Assembly (NCBI GenBank): GCA_029856145.1
Contig: JAHQWK010000008.1
Location: 124,001 to 188,000, forward strand
Source of the DNA: Promethearchaeia archaeon
Lineage (GTDB): Archaea > Asgardarchaeota > Lokiarchaeia > Sigyniarchaeales > SOKP01
Length of the DNA stretch: 64,000 nt
Direction of reading: 5' to 3'
Below the pieces are notes generated by a model, which saw nothing but the letters and a program-made list of their open reading frames with translations, did no database searches and was not told the DNA's origin. Shown here in pieces: positions 10,285-36,391 of the stretch; within the stretch, counting starts at the first letter, position 1; each line of letters opens with the position of its first letter. The position numbers and the translations under genes are program-made.

Positions 10285-11328
10285 ATGAGCTCATTAGAAA
10301 CTCCCCTACAAGAAAAATTTGTATTAAAGAAAAAGCTCTGTATCTTAGGAGGAACTGAAAATTATAAGGATGAGTTTCAAAAAAAGTTGAGTTCTAATAG
10401 TCTACCAATCGAAAATAAACGAAATATTGGTGTAAACATAAGTAAGGTTGATTTTTTCTTTAAAAAAAATGAAAAATTTGAATTTCTTTTATGGAATATT
10501 GATTGTAGACAACCAAGGTCCTATTTACGAACAATTTTTTATAATGGGGCTGAAGCTATTATAATATTTATTTCAGAAACAAAAGTGGATCAAATTCTAC
10601 TCTACTTTAAAGAAATTCAAGCTCGGATTTCATCAATAACCATTGTATTTTGTATAATCCTTGAACAACACACTAGAGATGACATAATTAATAAATATTT
10701 TAAGAATGATGAATTTAATTCAATGATTAAATCAAATAACGTCCAGATTAATGAAATTTTTGAGGATTCAGAAATTCTAAATCAAATTTGTTTAATTTCA
10801 TTGAAGAGAACTAAATATAAAGAATTAGAAAATACTTATTTCATAGACTTTATTCCTTTACCTCTCCTTTTTGAGAATGATGAGATTACGGATGAATGTA
10901 GTGATTATTATGAACCTGAGACTCGTAATATAAATATCAACATAACCATAAATACAGAACAATTGATTAAGTATATTTTGAAATTAAAGCTGAATGTAAA
11001 TTTTGAATCTGAGAATTGGATTAAAGTTAAAAATAAAAAACTCGGTATATTTTCAATTTATCTTAAAAATGGTAATGTGTATTATTATCCTAAAGTTTGT
11101 GAGAGATGTAAGGATCATACATGCCTGAAACTCAAAAAATCTCCATTTTTTATTTGCATTGAATTAGGAGAATCAGAAGGGTGGACTAATATTAATGGAT
11201 TTGACCAACCTGAACTCCTTATCTTAACAAAAATTTTTGCCTTGATAGAAGGTAACGAAAATAATTTACCAAGATCAGTATTAAAGCAAATTAAAAGTAT
11301 TAACATATGTGAGAAAGGTAGAAAATAA
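10285..11328 (+). CDS. degenerate Ras-like (pseudo-GTPase) protein with C-terminal cysteine cluster
   Basis: The N-terminal 130 residues have the layout of Ras/Rab-type GTPases: beta-1 KKLCILGGTENYKDEF where a P-loop should be, GVNISKVDFFFK in the switch I/beta-2 position, and FEFLLWNIDCRQPRSYLRTIFYNGAEAIIIFIS where WDxxGQ...GA would stand. The P-loop lysine-serine/threonine pair, the DxxG glycine and an NKxD motif are missing, so GTP hydrolysis is unlikely. Residues 270-290 carry CERCKDHTCLKLKKSPFFIC, a possible metal site. A good ribosome site (GGAAGG) precedes the ATG, and yjbQ starts 3 bp after the stop. The homology is inferred from motif layout only. Confidence 0.6.
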   Translation: MSSLETPLQEKFVLKKKLCILGGTENYKDEFQKKLSSNSLPIENKRNIGVNISKVDFFFKKNEKFEFLLWNIDCRQPRSYLRTIFYNGAEAIIIFISETKVDQILLYFKEIQARISSITIVFCIILEQHTRDDIINKYFKNDEFNSMIKSNNVQINEIFEDSEILNQICLISLKRTKYKELENTYFIDFIPLPLLFENDEITDECSDYYEPETRNININITINTEQLIKYILKLKLNVNFESENWIKVKNKKLGIFSIYLKNGNVYYYPKVCERCKDHTCLKLKKSPFFICIELGESEGWTNINGFDQPELLILTKIFALIEGNENNLPRSVLKQIKSINICEKGRK

Positions 11329-11754: not shown

Positions 11755-11790
11755 GAATTTCAGAGTATTTTAAAAAAAATAAAAAGTTTA

Positions 11791-12030
11791 TTATTTTGGC
11801 TTAGCGTTTTTTATTAAATTATCCAATTCTGTTATTATTATTTGGTATTTATCTCGAATCCGAATTTTCTCGAATTTATTTGTAAGACCCATGACTGATT
11901 GATCAAACTGATTTACTTTTTGAGTAAATACAGGGATTTTCTTAAGTGTTTTATATGTGTTTTCTTTTAGACTAATCTGATATTCTAAATTTTGTAAAAA
12001 TTTATTTTCTATTTCTATCAAATACATCAT
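11791..12030 (-). CDS. small hypothetical helical protein
   Basis: A 79-aa, charged, helical protein without cysteines or membrane segments. The heptad-like spacing (IEIENKFLQNLEYQISLKENTYKTLKK) suggests a short coiled coil. It begins MMYLIEIENK, so the second ATG could be used. It is convergent with yjbQ and lies about 210 bp downstream of another minus-strand small gene. I do not recognise it; coding status rests mainly on a clean frame and biased amino-acid composition. Confidence 0.45.
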   Translation of the reverse strand: MMYLIEIENKFLQNLEYQISLKENTYKTLKKIPVFTQKVNQFDQSVMGLTNKFEKIRIRDKYQIIITELDNLIKNAKPK

Positions 12031-12193
12031 CCTATTTCATAAATTATATTATTGAGTAAAATCAGTCCATCTGCTTTAAAAAATATAAATGTCATATAAA
12101 TATCATCGAAATTACTCTAAAATCACTATTCTTTTAGTGGTTTCTCTTAATAAATTGAAATTATAAACATAGGAATAATATTTAGATGAGATC

Positions 12194-12208
12194 TCGATAT
12201 TATATCGA
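12194..12208. repeat. 15-bp inverted repeat (7-bp arms, 1-nt centre)
   Basis: TCGATAT-T-ATATCGA is a perfect inverted repeat in the 209-bp gap between two minus-strand small genes, about 165 bp upstream of the 79-aa gene. It is AT-rich and has no following T-run, so an operator-like site is more plausible than a terminator. No regulator is implied by its position. Confidence 0.35.
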
Positions 12209-12239
12209 TCAATATACATTTTAGCGCAAAAATTCTAAC

Positions 12240-12551
12240 TTAAAAACTCTGTTTTACTAGGTTATACAAGAGGATGCCCAGCAATTCTCTTTGTTCTCTG
12301 ACAGTTCTAGCAATTCCGTTCAGGTTTATTATCATTGCTCCAAGACAAAGTATTCCCCCTGAAAACACGATAACCCATCCTAATGAAGGTTCACGGAGAG
12401 GAAAGTTATCCCATGCAAGTAAAAATCCAACAATTCCTATTATATACCAAAAAAGCATGAAAGAAAAATAACATTTAATCTTTCTATTACTGTATATATT
12501 TAACCTTCTAATTAGGATTTTAAATTTTATGATAAATTTTGAATTGGTCAT
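12240..12551 (-). CDS. small membrane protein, two transmembrane helices
   Basis: A 103-aa protein with a basic N-terminus (KFKILIRRLNIYSNRKIK), a first hydrophobic helix around residues 31-45 (FMLFWYIIGIVGFLLAW) and a second around residues 58-75 (GWVIVFSGGILCLGAMII), then a charged tail. Positive residues at the N-terminus suggest cytoplasmic ends. It is divergent from the TPR gene. No family recognised. Confidence 0.55.
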   Translation of the reverse strand: MTNSKFIIKFKILIRRLNIYSNRKIKCYFSFMLFWYIIGIVGFLLAWDNFPLREPSLGWVIVFSGGILCLGAMIINLNGIARTVREQRELLGILLYNLVKQSF

Positions 12552-12670
12552 ATCTCTGAATTTAAATTATAAGGTATCAATTTAAACAAAAAAAAACCAA
12601 AGAGTTTTTTTTTTAAAAAGTTATAGTTAATTAGATTTTATAAAAAAAATATAATAAAAGACAAAAAATC

Positions 12671-13993
12671 ATGAATTTAAATGCAAATGAATTTATGAAA
12701 AAAATTCAACTTTTAATGTCTCAGGGGCAAGTTGAAGAGGCAATTGATTTACTTGAAGACTCTATAAAGTCCAACCCTAAGTTTGTTGAGAGATGGATGT
12801 TGCTTGCATCGATTTTTCGAGCTGTGGGGCGAATTGATAAGTCAATCGAGATTTGTAAAAAAGCCTCAGAGATTATACCTGACAATTCAATAATCTGGAA
12901 TAATCTTGGGCATCTATATATTGAGAAAAATCTTTATGAGGAAGCGATTGACCCAATTAAAAAAGCATTATCCATTGACTCTAAAAATGCGAGTGCGTGG
13001 TTTTCTCTTGGTCGAGTATATGTGTCGAAAGAGGATTATACCCAAGGTATTGAAGCTTTTGAAAAAGCGGTAAAAATCGCACCAAATCGAGTTGAATTAT
13101 GGAATGCTCTGGGATCAGCATTAGATGATAATAATCAGTATAAAGAATCAATCAGAGCCTATAAGAAAGCGTTAGAACTTCAACCGGATTCATTTAATAC
13201 TATGGTTGGTTTAGGTATGGTCTATGCAAATGCTGGAGATTTTAAGGACGCAATAAAGACTTATGAAAAATGTTTAAAAGTTGAACCTGATAACGAAGTG
13301 TTATGGTTTCAACTTGGTAAGGCACTTTCAGGTGCGGGGAAATTAGATGACGCAGTTAGGGCAATCAAGGAGGGATTAGCTCTCAATCCTAGTATTGTTC
13401 AAGCATGGATGGATCTCCACGATGTATATGAAAAGAAAGGAGAACAAGAGCTTGCAATTGAAGCCATGAGAAAAGCTATGGTAACGGGAAAAGTGGATAT
13501 TGCATTCGCAGGTAGTGAAGAAGAAGCAATATCCAAAATTGGTGAATGGGGTCAAGAGCAAAAAAACAAGGAAACTGAGCTTGATTCAATGGTAGAAAGA
13601 CGATTATTCCCTTCTTGGTCATTTAAGGTCCCACCAGATTTTGAAGAGCGTCCAGACGGAAACAGAACTCAGTTGATTTCGCCTGATGGAGAAAGATGCA
13701 TTACAACAAGTGCATTAACTTTTGGAGAACAAGCACTCCCTGAAATTATTGCTGATATTGGCAGACAATATGAACAAGCGGGATTTAAAAAAAGATTTGA
13801 TATAAAATACAAGGATTACACCGGTTTTGTCTTTGAAAATGACCAGTACGCTCATATGGGTACTTTTGTAATACAAAGGGCAATGGCTGCACCTTCAGGA
13901 GTCCTTATGTTGACATTCTCTGTCGCCGACACAAAAGAAAATAAAGATTGGGCTTTGCTTGTAATTAATACAGTGAAGTATTACAAAAACTAA
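12671..13993 (+). CDS. TPR-repeat protein with C-terminal DcrB/PsbP-like domain
   Basis: Residues about 5-275 are roughly eight tandem 34-residue tetratricopeptide repeats with the usual W/L/G/Y/A/F/A/P spacing (for example NASAWFSLGRVYVSKEDYTQGIEAFEKAVKIAP), a scaffold for protein-protein contacts. Residues about 300-440 form a different domain (FPSWSFKVPPDFEER, FVIQRAMAAPSGVLMLTFSVAD, DWALLVINTVKYY) resembling the compact DcrB/PsbP/DUF1795 fold. There is no signal peptide, so it is probably cytoplasmic. It stands alone, followed 60 bp later by the LRR gene on the same strand. The partner is unknown. Confidence 0.75.
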   Translation: MNLNANEFMKKIQLLMSQGQVEEAIDLLEDSIKSNPKFVERWMLLASIFRAVGRIDKSIEICKKASEIIPDNSIIWNNLGHLYIEKNLYEEAIDPIKKALSIDSKNASAWFSLGRVYVSKEDYTQGIEAFEKAVKIAPNRVELWNALGSALDDNNQYKESIRAYKKALELQPDSFNTMVGLGMVYANAGDFKDAIKTYEKCLKVEPDNEVLWFQLGKALSGAGKLDDAVRAIKEGLALNPSIVQAWMDLHDVYEKKGEQELAIEAMRKAMVTGKVDIAFAGSEEEAISKIGEWGQEQKNKETELDSMVERRLFPSWSFKVPPDFEERPDGNRTQLISPDGERCITTSALTFGEQALPEIIADIGRQYEQAGFKKRFDIKYKDYTGFVFENDQYAHMGTFVIQRAMAAPSGVLMLTFSVADTKENKDWALLVINTVKYYKN

Positions 13994-14053
13994 TGAGGTT
14001 TCAAGACTCAAAGTAAGACAGAACAATGAATTAAAAGTTTATAATCATATTTC

Positions 14054-16810
14054 ATGTTTAGTATGGAAGAAAATATCTTAAAATGTAAAAATTGTGGTTC
14101 TACGGATATTTTACAAACTATTGAAGGATTTGTGTGTAGAAGCTGTGGAATACTCTGGAATGATGATATGGAATATAGCAAACTTACTAAACCGAAAGAG
14201 TTTAAAGTTAACGATTATCTAAGTTTAAAGTTAGAGGGTAATAGTACCAATATCTATGTTAAAGGAAGATTATTCCAACAGTGCAAATTTCTCTTATTGA
14301 ATATACCTATTGATGAGATAACATCGTTTGATGCTGTTGAATCGATCGATGAAGCAGCAGATAAGTTGGATCGCTCATTAGAAAACCCTTCAAGTAATTT
14401 TATGATCCCTCCTGAAACGGAATTCTGGGGTCACTGTTCAAATCTACAAGTCTGGTATGAAAATAATTACGATACACGTTTAATCCATAGTAATTTGGCA
14501 TTTCCTTTATTGAAAAGACTAGTGGAAGCCGGGGATGTGAATGCTAAGAAAGTCTCTAAAGAGGAGATTGTTAACCGATATATCGAAGGAAATGAAACAG
14601 TTCAAACCTATTTAATGGAGCAAGGCTATTTAACCAATCTAGAAAGTGAAGAACTCAAATTATTAGCCATGGAATTATTCGGAAAAGAGAATTATACTGG
14701 TTTGGCTCTCTTTAACATAAACACTATTCAACATATTAGGTTTAGAAAAGATGAAGTAATAGACTTAATTTTTGATTCGAATTATGAATTTAAAAGTTGG
14801 ATAAATAAATTCTTAAAAGAAAGACTTAATGCTGGATTATTCATTCATAGATTATTATTATCTTTATTTACTACTAGCCTGAATAAAACCGATGAGTTTA
14901 CAAAGAACTTATATAAAAATGGTTTTAAGAAATGTTTTCTCCAAGCTGATAATAGAACAAAGTTAGAGTTAGCCTATAGGGCAGAATTACAGATCTTTGA
15001 TAATAAAGAGAGAGAACACCTTCTTAATTTTATAGATTTTGAGGTAATAAATGAATATCAACCAGAAGAAGCACTCCATATATTAAGTCATTTTGTATAT
15101 TATGAGTCGACTAAAGCTAGAAAAGTCCTTCACGAAAAGATAAAAAAGTATTTTGAAAATAAAAATAAGGCTATGATACGACATATAATTGAATGTAAAT
15201 ATATACAATACTTAGAGCCTCGTGAATTAGATTTTTTAATAGAAAATTTTGATTACACAATTATAACTGAACAGGAAGTAAGAAAACCTTTTGAAGATGA
15301 AGCGTATAAGCAATTAGGAATCTTAGGTAATTTTGGATATTCTAAGGCAAATCAGATTCTTAAGGAAGAATTTTTGAAAAGATTTAAAGAGGATCAGCTT
15401 AAGGGAGTTGATTTCTTAAGGGGATATCTAAGTCATTTAAAAAGAACTGAGTTAGAAGATTTTTTAAAAGATTTAGATTATACCACAATCCTCAATCAAG
15501 ATTTTTCACATACTTTCAATATATTAAGCACATTAGAGGAAATGGGGATTCAGAAAGCAAGAAGAATATACAAGCAATTATATGGATCCCGTCCACTAGT
15601 TAAACTTTTTTCCTCTATGGATACCAGCAAACAGGAGAGCATTTATGAAAAAAAGTTAGAATTAATACGAAGTATTTTACCTCCCTTAGAATACACTTTT
15701 CTACAAGAGCTTCAGTTACTAATTGACGAGAAAATTCAAATTTTTATAGATCCAAGAATTAGTAATTCTCCTTCCATTGTAATTAAGCAAAAGAAAATTT
15801 CACAAATAAGGATGGAGAGACAAAATATAGAAGTAATACCGAAATCTATTAGAAATTTAAAATCTTTGAAAATTTTAAATCTCAATTACAATCGATTGAA
15901 AGCCCTACCTGAAGAAATTGGTGAAATAACCTTTCTTGAGGATCTTTTGCTAATGGACAATTCAATCACAGGATTACCCGAGACAATGGGAAAGTTAGTT
16001 CATTTACGGTATTTAGATTTGACGAGGAATAAACTAGATTCCCTACCTCGTTCGATTACAAAGCTTAAAAAATTAGAATATTTAAATTTAAATTTCAACA
16101 ACTTTCGAAACATGCCTAAAATTATTGGGAAATTAGAATCTCTAAAGTATCTTTTTTTTGATTATAATCAATTACATAATTTGCCTAACATTTTTCATAA
16201 ATTAGGAAATTTAAAACGAATTGACCTGCAAGGGAATAGATTAAAGACAATACCTGGGGCATTACTAAAATTAAATTCTATTAAGAAGATATCTTTATCC
16301 AAGGAGTTTTTAGATATGAAGACCATTAATCTGCTTGAGTCAATAAAAAAGGAGTATTCTAAATTTGTGAAAGAAGCGGATAGAAAACCTTCAATCTGGA
16401 GTATGCTATGGGAGGAACCCATGGTAAAACCCTTAAATATTTTGTTTGATAAATACATTCTTCGATTTTTTTATGAATGGGGGGGATTTACCAACATTTT
16501 TTGGTCTTACAATGATGAAACTATCACTAAATATGGATATCCTGCTAGACTATACAGTTTACCTTTATCTTCTGATATAATAGATAAATTTAGGTCTCTT
16601 TCTATGAAGTGGCAAAAAATAAATAGATTTTTCATGTATAAAGAAAAATATAATATTGGCTCAAATCTTGAAGTCGAAGCAATGGAGAAGGAACTAGAGG
16701 TATTAAAAAATGAGACTAAAGATACATTTTTAAAGGCGATAAAGCAATTAGGGCCTAATTTTCAGGTTAAGTTCCAAATGGAAGGATATGGACTTCCATA
16801 TGAGAGATAA
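14054..16810 (+). CDS. large zinc-ribbon / helical / leucine-rich-repeat protein (Lokiarchaeia-type)
   Basis: A 918-aa protein. Residues 9-35 form a zinc ribbon (CKNCGSTDI ... CRSCGILW). Then comes a beta segment (KVNDYLSLKLEGNSTNIYV) and a conserved block (CKFLLLNIPIDEITSFDAVESIDEAADKL, PPETEFWGHCSNLQVWYENNYDTR) that, from memory, recurs in many Lokiarchaeal LRR proteins. Residues about 240-560 look like HEAT-type helices. Residues about 580-755 hold seven 23-residue LRRs (LKILNLNYNRLKALPEEIGE and relatives). The C-terminus ends in coiled-coil-like helices. The ATG at 14063 is an alternative start. Intracellular LRR proteins often bind small GTPases, and a Rag-like GTPase is the next gene; a link is only inference. 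Confidence 0.75.
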   Translation: MFSMEENILKCKNCGSTDILQTIEGFVCRSCGILWNDDMEYSKLTKPKEFKVNDYLSLKLEGNSTNIYVKGRLFQQCKFLLLNIPIDEITSFDAVESIDEAADKLDRSLENPSSNFMIPPETEFWGHCSNLQVWYENNYDTRLIHSNLAFPLLKRLVEAGDVNAKKVSKEEIVNRYIEGNETVQTYLMEQGYLTNLESEELKLLAMELFGKENYTGLALFNINTIQHIRFRKDEVIDLIFDSNYEFKSWINKFLKERLNAGLFIHRLLLSLFTTSLNKTDEFTKNLYKNGFKKCFLQADNRTKLELAYRAELQIFDNKEREHLLNFIDFEVINEYQPEEALHILSHFVYYESTKARKVLHEKIKKYFENKNKAMIRHIIECKYIQYLEPRELDFLIENFDYTIITEQEVRKPFEDEAYKQLGILGNFGYSKANQILKEEFLKRFKEDQLKGVDFLRGYLSHLKRTELEDFLKDLDYTTILNQDFSHTFNILSTLEEMGIQKARRIYKQLYGSRPLVKLFSSMDTSKQESIYEKKLELIRSILPPLEYTFLQELQLLIDEKIQIFIDPRISNSPSIVIKQKKISQIRMERQNIEVIPKSIRNLKSLKILNLNYNRLKALPEEIGEITFLEDLLLMDNSITGLPETMGKLVHLRYLDLTRNKLDSLPRSITKLKKLEYLNLNFNNFRNMPKIIGKLESLKYLFFDYNQLHNLPNIFHKLGNLKRIDLQGNRLKTIPGALLKLNSIKKISLSKEFLDMKTINLLESIKKEYSKFVKEADRKPSIWSMLWEEPMVKPLNILFDKYILRFFYEWGGFTNIFWSYNDETITKYGYPARLYSLPLSSDIIDKFRSLSMKWQKINRFFMYKEKYNIGSNLEVEAMEKELEVLKNETKDTFLKAIKQLGPNFQVKFQMEGYGLPYER

Positions 16811-17040
16811 AGAGCTTACACGGTTAGCATCTTGAATAACAAATAAATAGGTATTATAAATTAAGATCGCTTTTCATTCAAAAAAAAATAAGTGGATGAA
16901 ATTATAGAAATTACATTAAAATTGAAATAGAAATTGGATTTTGATGAGTGACGGTAAGCAAATAAATAAAGTAGATTTTTACATAAGTTAAAAAATATGG
17001 AATTTATTAATTTTATAATTAGAAAACTTAAGGATTAACA

Positions 17041-17964
17041 ATGGAAGGCTTATTAAAAATTATCGTGAGCGGGCTTGACAATGCAGGTAAGACATCAATC
17101 TTAACAGCTTTAGATAAAAAGTATGATTTTGCGAAAGATATCCTTCAGCTCAAGCCAACTATTAGAGTTGAGTATCATAAGATGAATTTCTTGCGCAGCA
17201 ATTGTGTGATATGGGACATGGGTGGCCAAGAAACATATCGTGAGATTTACATTAATTACCAAGATGTTTATTTTGATGCTACTGATTTACTTATCTATGT
17301 AATTGATATTCAAGATCCAGAACGATTTGATAATTCACTTGAATATTTAAATGCGATTTTAACCTTTTTCTCAGAAAGTGAAATGGACGTTCCAATAATC
17401 ATAACTTTTCATAAATATGATCCTGAATTAAAGGCTGATGAAGAGATCCTCGCAAATATTGAAAAATTAAGGGAAAAAATATTAAATGAATATCCTGATA
17501 TAAATATATTATTTCAGCAGTCGTCCATTTATGATATTATTTCTATTGTCCAGCTAGTTTCATATGGTCTTTCTGTGTTTGATAAAAAGTTTTTTGAACT
17601 TTCAGAATTATTGGAATATTATTTGGAAATTTTTAATAGTCAAGCTCTAATCGTATTTGATCGTAATGGGATCATTATTTCTGAATATTACAATGATATT
17701 GAACCAGAAGTCTATGTTGAGTTGTTAGATTCAATTAAAGAACATATCTTCTTACTTAAGCGGATGGAAGAGGAAAAAATTGAAGGAAATTTTGATTTTA
17801 CCTCAACTGAAGGTATACTCTTTTCCTATTTACTCAGAAAGAAAATAAAGAATGAAATGTTTTTCGTGTCAGCAGTACTTAGAGAACAGCAAAAAGAGAA
17901 TTTCTTTGAAAAATTCCCTGCTTTTCTTGATGATTTAGTTAAGATTTTAGAGCAAATAATATAA
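17041..17964 (+). CDS. Rag/Gtr-like small GTPase with C-terminal roadblock-like domain
   Basis: G1 P-loop GLDNAGKTS lies at residues 11-19, a switch-I threonine in KPTIRVEY, G3 WDMGGQETYRE near residue 58 with the catalytic glutamine, and G4 reads FHKYDPE near residue 123. HKxD instead of NKxD is the Rag/Gtr signature. After residue about 190 the chain continues with LEIFNSQALIVFDRNGIIISEYYND and a further alpha/beta stretch to 307 aa, the strand-helix pattern of the longin/roadblock dimerisation domain that follows the G domain in eukaryotic Rag proteins. The gene is monocistronic behind 230 bp of AT-rich DNA. Probably cytoplasmic or membrane-peripheral. Confidence 0.8.
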   Translation: MEGLLKIIVSGLDNAGKTSILTALDKKYDFAKDILQLKPTIRVEYHKMNFLRSNCVIWDMGGQETYREIYINYQDVYFDATDLLIYVIDIQDPERFDNSLEYLNAILTFFSESEMDVPIIITFHKYDPELKADEEILANIEKLREKILNEYPDINILFQQSSIYDIISIVQLVSYGLSVFDKKFFELSELLEYYLEIFNSQALIVFDRNGIIISEYYNDIEPEVYVELLDSIKEHIFLLKRMEEEKIEGNFDFTSTEGILFSYLLRKKIKNEMFFVSAVLREQQKENFFEKFPAFLDDLVKILEQII

Positions 17965-23512: not shown

Positions 23513-24193
23513 TTAAACTAAATATTTTAACCCAGATCTCACTTTATAACTTTTTTTTATCCTATCAAGTTCAATAAATCGTTTAATTTCCAAATTATTT
23601 AAGAAATCTCGCATTTGTATTTTATCTTTTTTCAATTCTTCGGCTAAACCTTCAATATCAGTTTCATAAGTACGTAGTGTTTGAAGTAATGATGAATATT
23701 CTTCAAAAACATGGTTGACTAAATAAGTAATAGATTCTTTTATGTTTAAACTAGTTTTTGTGCTTGTTGGAAACATTTTGTTATCTTCGGGTAAATAATT
23801 TTGTGAGCGAATTACTTCTGGAGGTCGAGCACCTTCAATATCCTGTTTATTTGCTAAAAAGATTATTGGAGTATTTGGAGGTAATATTTTTCTTATTGAA
23901 TTTAATATCATAATTGCACTATCATCTTTTTCAGGAGAAGCAGCATCAAAGAGAAAAATGACTCCATCTGAGCCACTCGTACAAATACTTCTCATAACTG
24001 AAAATCTTAAAAGCCCTGGTGTTCCAAACAAAAATACATCGAACCCGTTTAGTTTTACACTCCCTAAATCCATCGCAACGGTGTAAAACTTCTCATCTTT
24101 ACCTTTTGCTTCCACATTCATTGCATTATCATCTAGAGCCTTTATATAACTTGATTTTCCCGATTGTAGTGGCCCAGAAACTAAAATTTTTAT
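23513..24193 (-). CDS. small GTPase, COG2229/Srp102-like, no canonical start codon
   Basis: The ORF track begins at the ATG at 24121, but the frame stays open upstream to a TAA at 24212-24214 and encodes IKILVSGPLQSGKSSYIKALD, a complete P-loop that the short form would lose. No ATG, GTG or TTG occurs in that extension. GGTGA at 24201-24205 lies 7 nt before an ATA codon at 24193, so initiation at ATA (or the ATT at 24187) is the simplest reading. Other motifs: FLFGTPGLLRF in place of DxxGQ, FLFDAASPEKDD, and G4 LANKQD. The C-terminal tail is helical. Alternatives are a lost start (dying gene) or a base error. Confidence 0.7.
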   Translation of the reverse strand: MKILVSGPLQSGKSSYIKALDDNAMNVEAKGKDEKFYTVAMDLGSVKLNGFDVFLFGTPGLLRFSVMRSICTSGSDGVIFLFDAASPEKDDSAIMILNSIRKILPPNTPIIFLANKQDIEGARPPEVIRSQNYLPEDNKMFPTSTKTSLNIKESITYLVNHVFEEYSSLLQTLRTYETDIEGLAEELKKDKIQMRDFLNNLEIKRFIELDRIKKSYKVRSGLKYLV

Positions 24194-35788: not shown

Positions 35789-36391
35789 TTAATTGAACCA
35801 GTTTACAGTTGAAACTAATTTGTGTTTGTAGTACTTTCCTAGAATTAATCTTAGAATCTCTTCAAAACAATCTAGAACCCCCTCTCCGCTGATTGCAATA
35901 GTAAATCTTGTCTCCACTTTTTGATACATATCAAGCTTTATTTCTCTTAGGAAAACTCTGGAATTAAATTTTTCTGGTAAATCTTGTTTATTAAATGCAA
36001 TTATTATTGGAATCTCTTTAAGTGATTCACGAAAATATGAGATAAGTTCTTGCCAAGACGCTAAATTACGCTCATAAACTTTTTCTTGTGAATCTGCCAC
36101 GAAGATTATCCCATCAACTGCCCGTAATGTGACTGGTCTAGTAATAAAATAAAAATCTTGACCTGTTGTGGTATAAATATGAAGTTTCAATCTCCATTCT
36201 TCATTTTGAAATGTAACTGTACCATAGTCAAAAAATAAAGTCCTATTCACAGTACTCTCAATACTGTGGAGTGCTTCACCCTTACCAAAATGAGAAAATA
36301 AAGTTTTAATAGATGTAGTCTTACCTGAAAAAGCGGGTCCGAAATAAACAATTTTAATGGAAATGGTTTTGTCAATATGGTCAATTATCAA
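35789..36391 (-). CDS. MglA/Arf-like small GTPase
   Basis: G1 YFGPAFSGKTTSIKTLF sits at residues 17-32. The sequence EWRLKLHIYTTTGQDFYFITRP carries the TxGQ form of switch II seen in MglA-type GTPases, and G4 is FNKQDLPEKF near residue 136. G5 may be AISGEG. The 200-aa length is a bare G domain plus a short tail. The start is TTG at 36391; no ATG precedes the P-loop. It is convergent with the Lrp gene. MglA family members control polarity and motility in bacteria; in Asgard archaea their role is unknown. Confidence 0.85.
   Translation of the reverse strand: MIIDHIDKTISIKIVYFGPAFSGKTTSIKTLFSHFGKGEALHSIESTVNRTLFFDYGTVTFQNEEWRLKLHIYTTTGQDFYFITRPVTLRAVDGIIFVADSQEKVYERNLASWQELISYFRESLKEIPIIIAFNKQDLPEKFNSRVFLREIKLDMYQKVETRFTIAISGEGVLDCFEEILRLILGKYYKHKLVSTVNWFN

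Follow-up and report, generated by a model that had tools for sequence, protein, structure and literature searches.

A single-copy Rag-like GTPase with its own roadblock domain, conserved across a Lokiarchaeal family

The stretch of DNA analysed here (64,000 nucleotides, G000:C7:124001-188000, referred to as the window) belongs to a host assembly of 3.55 Mb that is 97% complete with 5.4% contamination. On the forward strand of the window, positions 17041–17964 carry a gene, running from ATG to TAA, for a protein of 307 aa (P0001), which was characterised as a Rag-like GTPase–roadblock protein from its reading frame and translation, Pfam matches, an AF2 model searched with Foldseek, and dN/dS ratios. 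The reverse strand of this stretch is full of stops. The GTPase domain comprises residues 1–180 (17041–17580, + strand), as delimited by the Pfam Arf and Gtr1_RagA matches and by the model elements E4-11 to H166-178. It is followed by a C-terminal roadblock domain, residues 182–307 (17584–17961, + strand), assigned from the AF2 elements, an hhalign comparison and the alignment of RagA to profile position 289.

Orthologues of P0001 are syntenic across one Lokiarchaeal family, and the named orthologous loci are from Candidatus Lokiarchaeota/Lokiarchaeia MAGs. Identities range from 71 to 89% in 17 of the 18 congeneric genomes and from 55 to 60% in other genera of the family; in one congener (G004) the best match is just 38% identical. 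The dN/dS ratios calculated against seven orthologues were approximately 0.06–0.09 (an eighth was saturated), and codon changes among the orthologues are mostly in the third position. It is apparent that the ORF is real, far beyond chance, and that it is under strong purifying selection. In a phylum-wide search, the P0001 profile gave matches of ~1e-130 or better within the family versus ~1e-62 or weaker elsewhere, genomes with broken copies aside, and from this drop the orthogroup looks to be family-specific. A second GTPase copy, 61% identical and in tandem, was seen in one genome (L080, 4603–5532, + strand).

The usual gene order in the relatives is a tRNA methyltransferase (GCD14), a tRNA-binding domain protein, a 140-aa protein, a 347-aa protein, UPF0047, a 79-aa minus-strand frame, P0001, a W/Y-type tRNA synthetase, an Lrp regulator and a gene that we take, from its sequence, to encode a thermosome. 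Apart from the tandem copy in L080, no Rag-like or roadblock gene was found in this conserved neighbourhood. The 347-aa protein (10285–11328, + strand in the window) has a predicted Rab-like fold, with Foldseek matches to Rabs at E values of ~1e-6 from a model with a pLDDT of just 69.8. Its P-loop, DxxGQ and NKxD motifs are lost in 16 of 16 orthologues, as in a conserved pseudo-GTPase; it has a C-terminal Cys cluster (CEKCKxxxC-like) and stays near P0001 across the family. The 79-aa frame (11791–12030, − strand) is conserved, is likely to be helical and, in the relatives, is divergent to the adjoining P0001 gene. The DNA that contains it is 71–83% identical across most of the genus, and the conserved stretch at 11755–12258, which is partly this frame, contains no Rfam element. 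It is improbable that P0001, the pseudo-GTPase and the 79-aa protein constitute a functional module in which the dead Rab-like protein regulates the Rag-like switch. Closer to P0001 in the window are genes for a 440-aa TPR protein (12671–13993, + strand) and a 918-aa LRR protein with an N-terminal zinc ribbon (14054–16810, + strand). Both were rejected as partners of P0001 because the 4.7 kb that hold them (~12259–16978) could not be matched at the DNA level to any of the compared genomes.

Pfam matches to P0001, within residues 6–214, were to Arf (1e-22, 80.9 bits) and Gtr1_RagA (2.5e-20, 73.3 bits). The cut-off for PF04670 is 22 bits, and this model was matched by 63 of 63 family members. 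The expected GTPase motifs were located by alignment with homologues and with reference GTPases, of which the RagC and ARF1 sequences agree with their PDB entries throughout and the others were read from PDB alignments. The G1/P-loop, GLDNAGKT (residues 11–18; 17071–17094, + strand), is Arf-like in its wording, and G11, L12, G16, K17 and S19 are invariant among the 63 homologues, as are Pro39 and Thr40 of G2/switch I (17155–17160, + strand); with their flanking residues, these two elements read SGLDNAGKTS and KPT in P0001. G3 is WDMGGQE (residues 58–64; 17212–17232, + strand; WDCGGQD in RagA), with D59 and G61 invariant and G62 and Q63 conserved in at least 90% of the same homologues; Q63, a catalytic-type Gln, aligns with Q66 of RagA. 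Relative to Arf1/Arl3, switch II has an insert of approximately four residues within residues 72–76 (17254–17268, + strand). A similar insert is found in RagA and LokiRagO, and Tran et al. 2024 (PMC10933270) had already described this feature in GTPase–roadblock proteins. G4 is HKYD (residues 124–127; 17410–17421, + strand), K125 and D127 being invariant and H124 conserved in at least 90% of the 63 homologues, compared with HKMD in RagA, HKVD in RagC and NKQD in Arf1. The G5 region is SSIYD (residues 161–165; 17521–17535, + strand), compared with TSIWD in RagA and TSIYD in RagC. Thus the switch II insert, HKxD and a TSIxD-like G5 are shared by P0001 and the Rags and, where covered, are not present in Arf1/Arl3. 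Nearly all members of the Lokiarchaeal expansion carry HKxD, however, so this motif is not diagnostic of a eukaryotic Rag, and HKYD was discarded as such a marker.

The AF2 model of P0001, built on the 63-homologue alignment, has a pLDDT of 84.5 and a pTM of 0.74, with residues 31–50, including switch I, at low confidence (block pLDDT 56–68). The C-terminal domain of the model has the topology alpha-beta-beta-alpha-beta-beta-beta-alpha (H182-198, E202-206, E212-217, H222-244, E251-257, E260-269, E272-281 and H282-306). When this domain was compared by hhalign with the Robl_LC7 proteins of the host genome, 116 columns were aligned (P 2.5e-5, probability 75%), whereas the control comparison of the GTPase domain with the host Robl_LC7 profile gave five columns and nothing of significance. 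Pfam Robl_LC7 did not match P0001, nor did it appear among the matches listed for the 63-member family; this model commonly misses diverged roadblocks. Foldseek placed 8YL2 first (TM 0.77–0.82, 28% identity), followed by RagA, Gtr1 and RagC (TM ~0.57–0.76 over ~300 columns), whereas Arf/Arl proteins matched over just ~180 columns. When the 63-homologue profile was compared with the PDB, the best matches were LokiRagO (8e-94) and LokiRagM (4e-59); RagA (2e-32 over positions 5–289) and SpGtr1 (1.5e-31), the best eukaryotic matches, were covered through the C-terminal domain, and RagC and Arl3 trailed at ~1e-21. These results uphold the principal claim of the sequence-only reading, that of a Rag-like GTPase with a roadblock domain of its own. 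The WDMGGQE (W58–E64) and HKYD (H124–D127) motifs and the alpha/beta tail (residues 182–307) that it named are all present, and a C-terminal fold unrelated to roadblock was looked for, with a roadblock fold found instead.

Phylogenetic analyses were performed with the GTPase domains. In a first tree (98 rows, 181 columns, short search), 31 rows formed a clade containing eukaryotic RagA, Gtr1 and RagC together with Asgard proteins (support 96), and 60 rows formed a second clade that includes P0001, LokiRagO and LokiRagM (SH-aLRT 94); each of these 60 rows whose origin is shown belongs to the same class as the window. In a second, more careful tree of 47 rows, rooted on Arf1/Arl3, the eukaryotic-Rag clade (99/97) and the P0001 orthogroup (99/96) were both recovered, and the remainder of the Lokiarchaeal group was a fan without resolved order. 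RagC and the host protein L020 are long branches, and their exact positions are therefore unsure. A single Lokiarchaeal clade was not rejected (p-AU 0.53), whereas a grouping that unites the eukaryotic Rags with the P0001 group and leaves out the other Asgard clade was rejected (p-AU 0.026, a post hoc test of a group named after the tree had been seen). The placement of the eukaryotic Rags in a different Asgard clade argues that P0001 is best regarded as a Rag-like protein of a Loki-only expansion, and not as a eukaryotic Rag orthologue. The match to the eukaryotic Rag architecture previously claimed for P0001 thus stands for the two-domain build but does not extend to a close relationship with the eukaryotic Rags.

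P0001 belongs to an archaeal branch that has already been described, with solved structures (8YL2, 8ZLA and 9M28). LokiRagO (PDB 8YL2, 'Homo Tetrameric RagA-like small GTPase from Asgard Lokiarchaeota') has the same GTPase and C-terminal roadblock domains, the switch II insert and HKxD, belongs to the same Loki-only group and matches P0001 structurally over its whole length, although it falls in a different orthogroup, together with the host paralogues L006/L007. LokiRagM (PDB 8ZLA, 9M28) is likewise a Rag-like GTPase with a C-terminal domain, from the same broad group, but its C-terminus is longer and it is described as a monomer; its overall superposition on the P0001 model is poor (TM 0.44, rmsd 16 Å), which indicates a different domain arrangement. 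Fusions of roadblock domains with Rag-like GTPases were described from Loki in a 2016 paper that cites an earlier re-examination of the Loki genome and asks whether such proteins might open archaeal nutrient sensing (PMC4917890), and GTPase–roadblock architectures of strain MK-D1 were modelled in 2024, one operonic Rag-like pair as a heterodimer (PMC10933270). Because of these reports and the PDB entries, P0001 adds little to the record of eukaryote-like GTPases in Asgard archaea, contrary to what had been suggested. What it confirms is that the standard two-domain Rag-like build is kept, single-copy and strongly constrained, across a Lokiarchaeal family.

P0001 shares a GLDxAGKT P-loop and WDxGGQ with Arf/Arl3. 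That Pfam Arf is the top single-domain match for P0001 alone, together with a P-loop that matches that of Arl3, could be taken to indicate an Arf-family GTPase, not a Rag, to which a roadblock domain has been added. Such an origin is highly unlikely, given that Arf/Arl3 lie outside all of the Rag-like proteins (100/100), have NKxD in place of HKxD and possess neither the switch II insert nor a roadblock domain. Furthermore, the G5 of P0001 is of the Rag type, its N-terminus has no amphipathic helix region and its full-length fold matches are Rags. The proposal that P0001 is the archaeal orthologue of RagA/Gtr1, with an ancestral nutrient or TOR-like function, draws on the ranking of RagA and Gtr1 above RagC and Arf among eukaryotic profile matches, on the shared architecture and switch II insert, and on the host roadblock proteins, on which the LAMTOR3-type profile PF08923 reaches its cut-off. 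The last of these may reflect just the shared roadblock fold; the LAMTOR5 profile remained below its cut-off in the host, and NPR2, the one GATOR1 family tested, had no match there, although its controls were equally silent. The P-loop of the eukaryotic Rags is worded differently, and they are obligate heterodimers in lysosomal TORC1 control. They group with host proteins L012, L016, L020, L023 and L027, and the topology test described above counts against moving them to the P0001 group. The host proteins L013 and L020 have Gtr1/RagA as their top PDB matches, ahead of LokiRagO, and the conserved neighbours of P0001 are the tRNA methyltransferase, tRNA synthetase, Lrp regulator and thermosome genes. 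Orthology with RagA/Gtr1 is accordingly very improbable. The role in TOR signalling that had been proposed for P0001 is not supported, and P0001 has no conserved operon partner.

The data make it highly probable that P0001 is a single-copy GTP switch of the LokiRagO kind, one of a Lokiarchaeal expansion, in which the roadblock domain provides a dimerisation platform and the assembly is most likely homo-oligomeric. The N-terminal domain would bind, and probably hydrolyse, GTP by means of switch I Thr40 and switch II Gln63, while the roadblock domain would tie the subunits together, as it does in Gtr1–Gtr2 and RagA–RagC. Homo-oligomerisation appears the most likely state by analogy with LokiRagO (~28% identical) and from the absence of an operon partner. 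In a variant of this explanation that differs only in the partner, P0001 would pair obligately with a Rag-like paralogue of the host to give a heterodimer, in the style of Gtr1–Gtr2. Eukaryotic Rags are heterodimers, the host genome has many Rag-like paralogues and the MK-D1 pair was modelled in this way; such pairing of P0001 is nevertheless rather unlikely, since P0001 stands alone in conserved synteny, with a Rag-like neighbour just in L080, and its nearest solved relative is a homotetramer.

The P0001 sequence has a single Cys, at position 55, with neither an N-terminal amphipathic extension nor a C-terminal lipidation cysteine, and the protein is predicted to be soluble. Given these features, any membrane role would need recruitment by another protein, for example a separate roadblock protein of the host. 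Eukaryotic Rags likewise have no lipid anchors and rely on Ragulator (PMC4917890). There are 16 Robl_LC7 matches in the host genome, and the proteins concerned could act as recruiters of P0001.

Among Loki genes, those with the greatest likeness to the eukaryotic Rags lie elsewhere in the host genome, and studies on the origin of the Rag/TOR system should therefore start there. The host genes in question comprise L012/L013 (C29:72451-73062), L016/L029 (C3), L020 (C9:379868-380269), L023 (C2:151891-152547) and L027 (C3:185773-186426). Clusters of Rag-like GTPase genes, some encoding proteins of 320–335 aa and others of ~500 aa, are situated at G000:C13:72854-93319 and G000:C3:173912-186426. Two further small-GTPase-like genes were observed in the window, one that is Ras-like by Pfam (23516–24121, − strand) and one that is Arf/Roc/Ras-like by Pfam (35792–36391, − strand).
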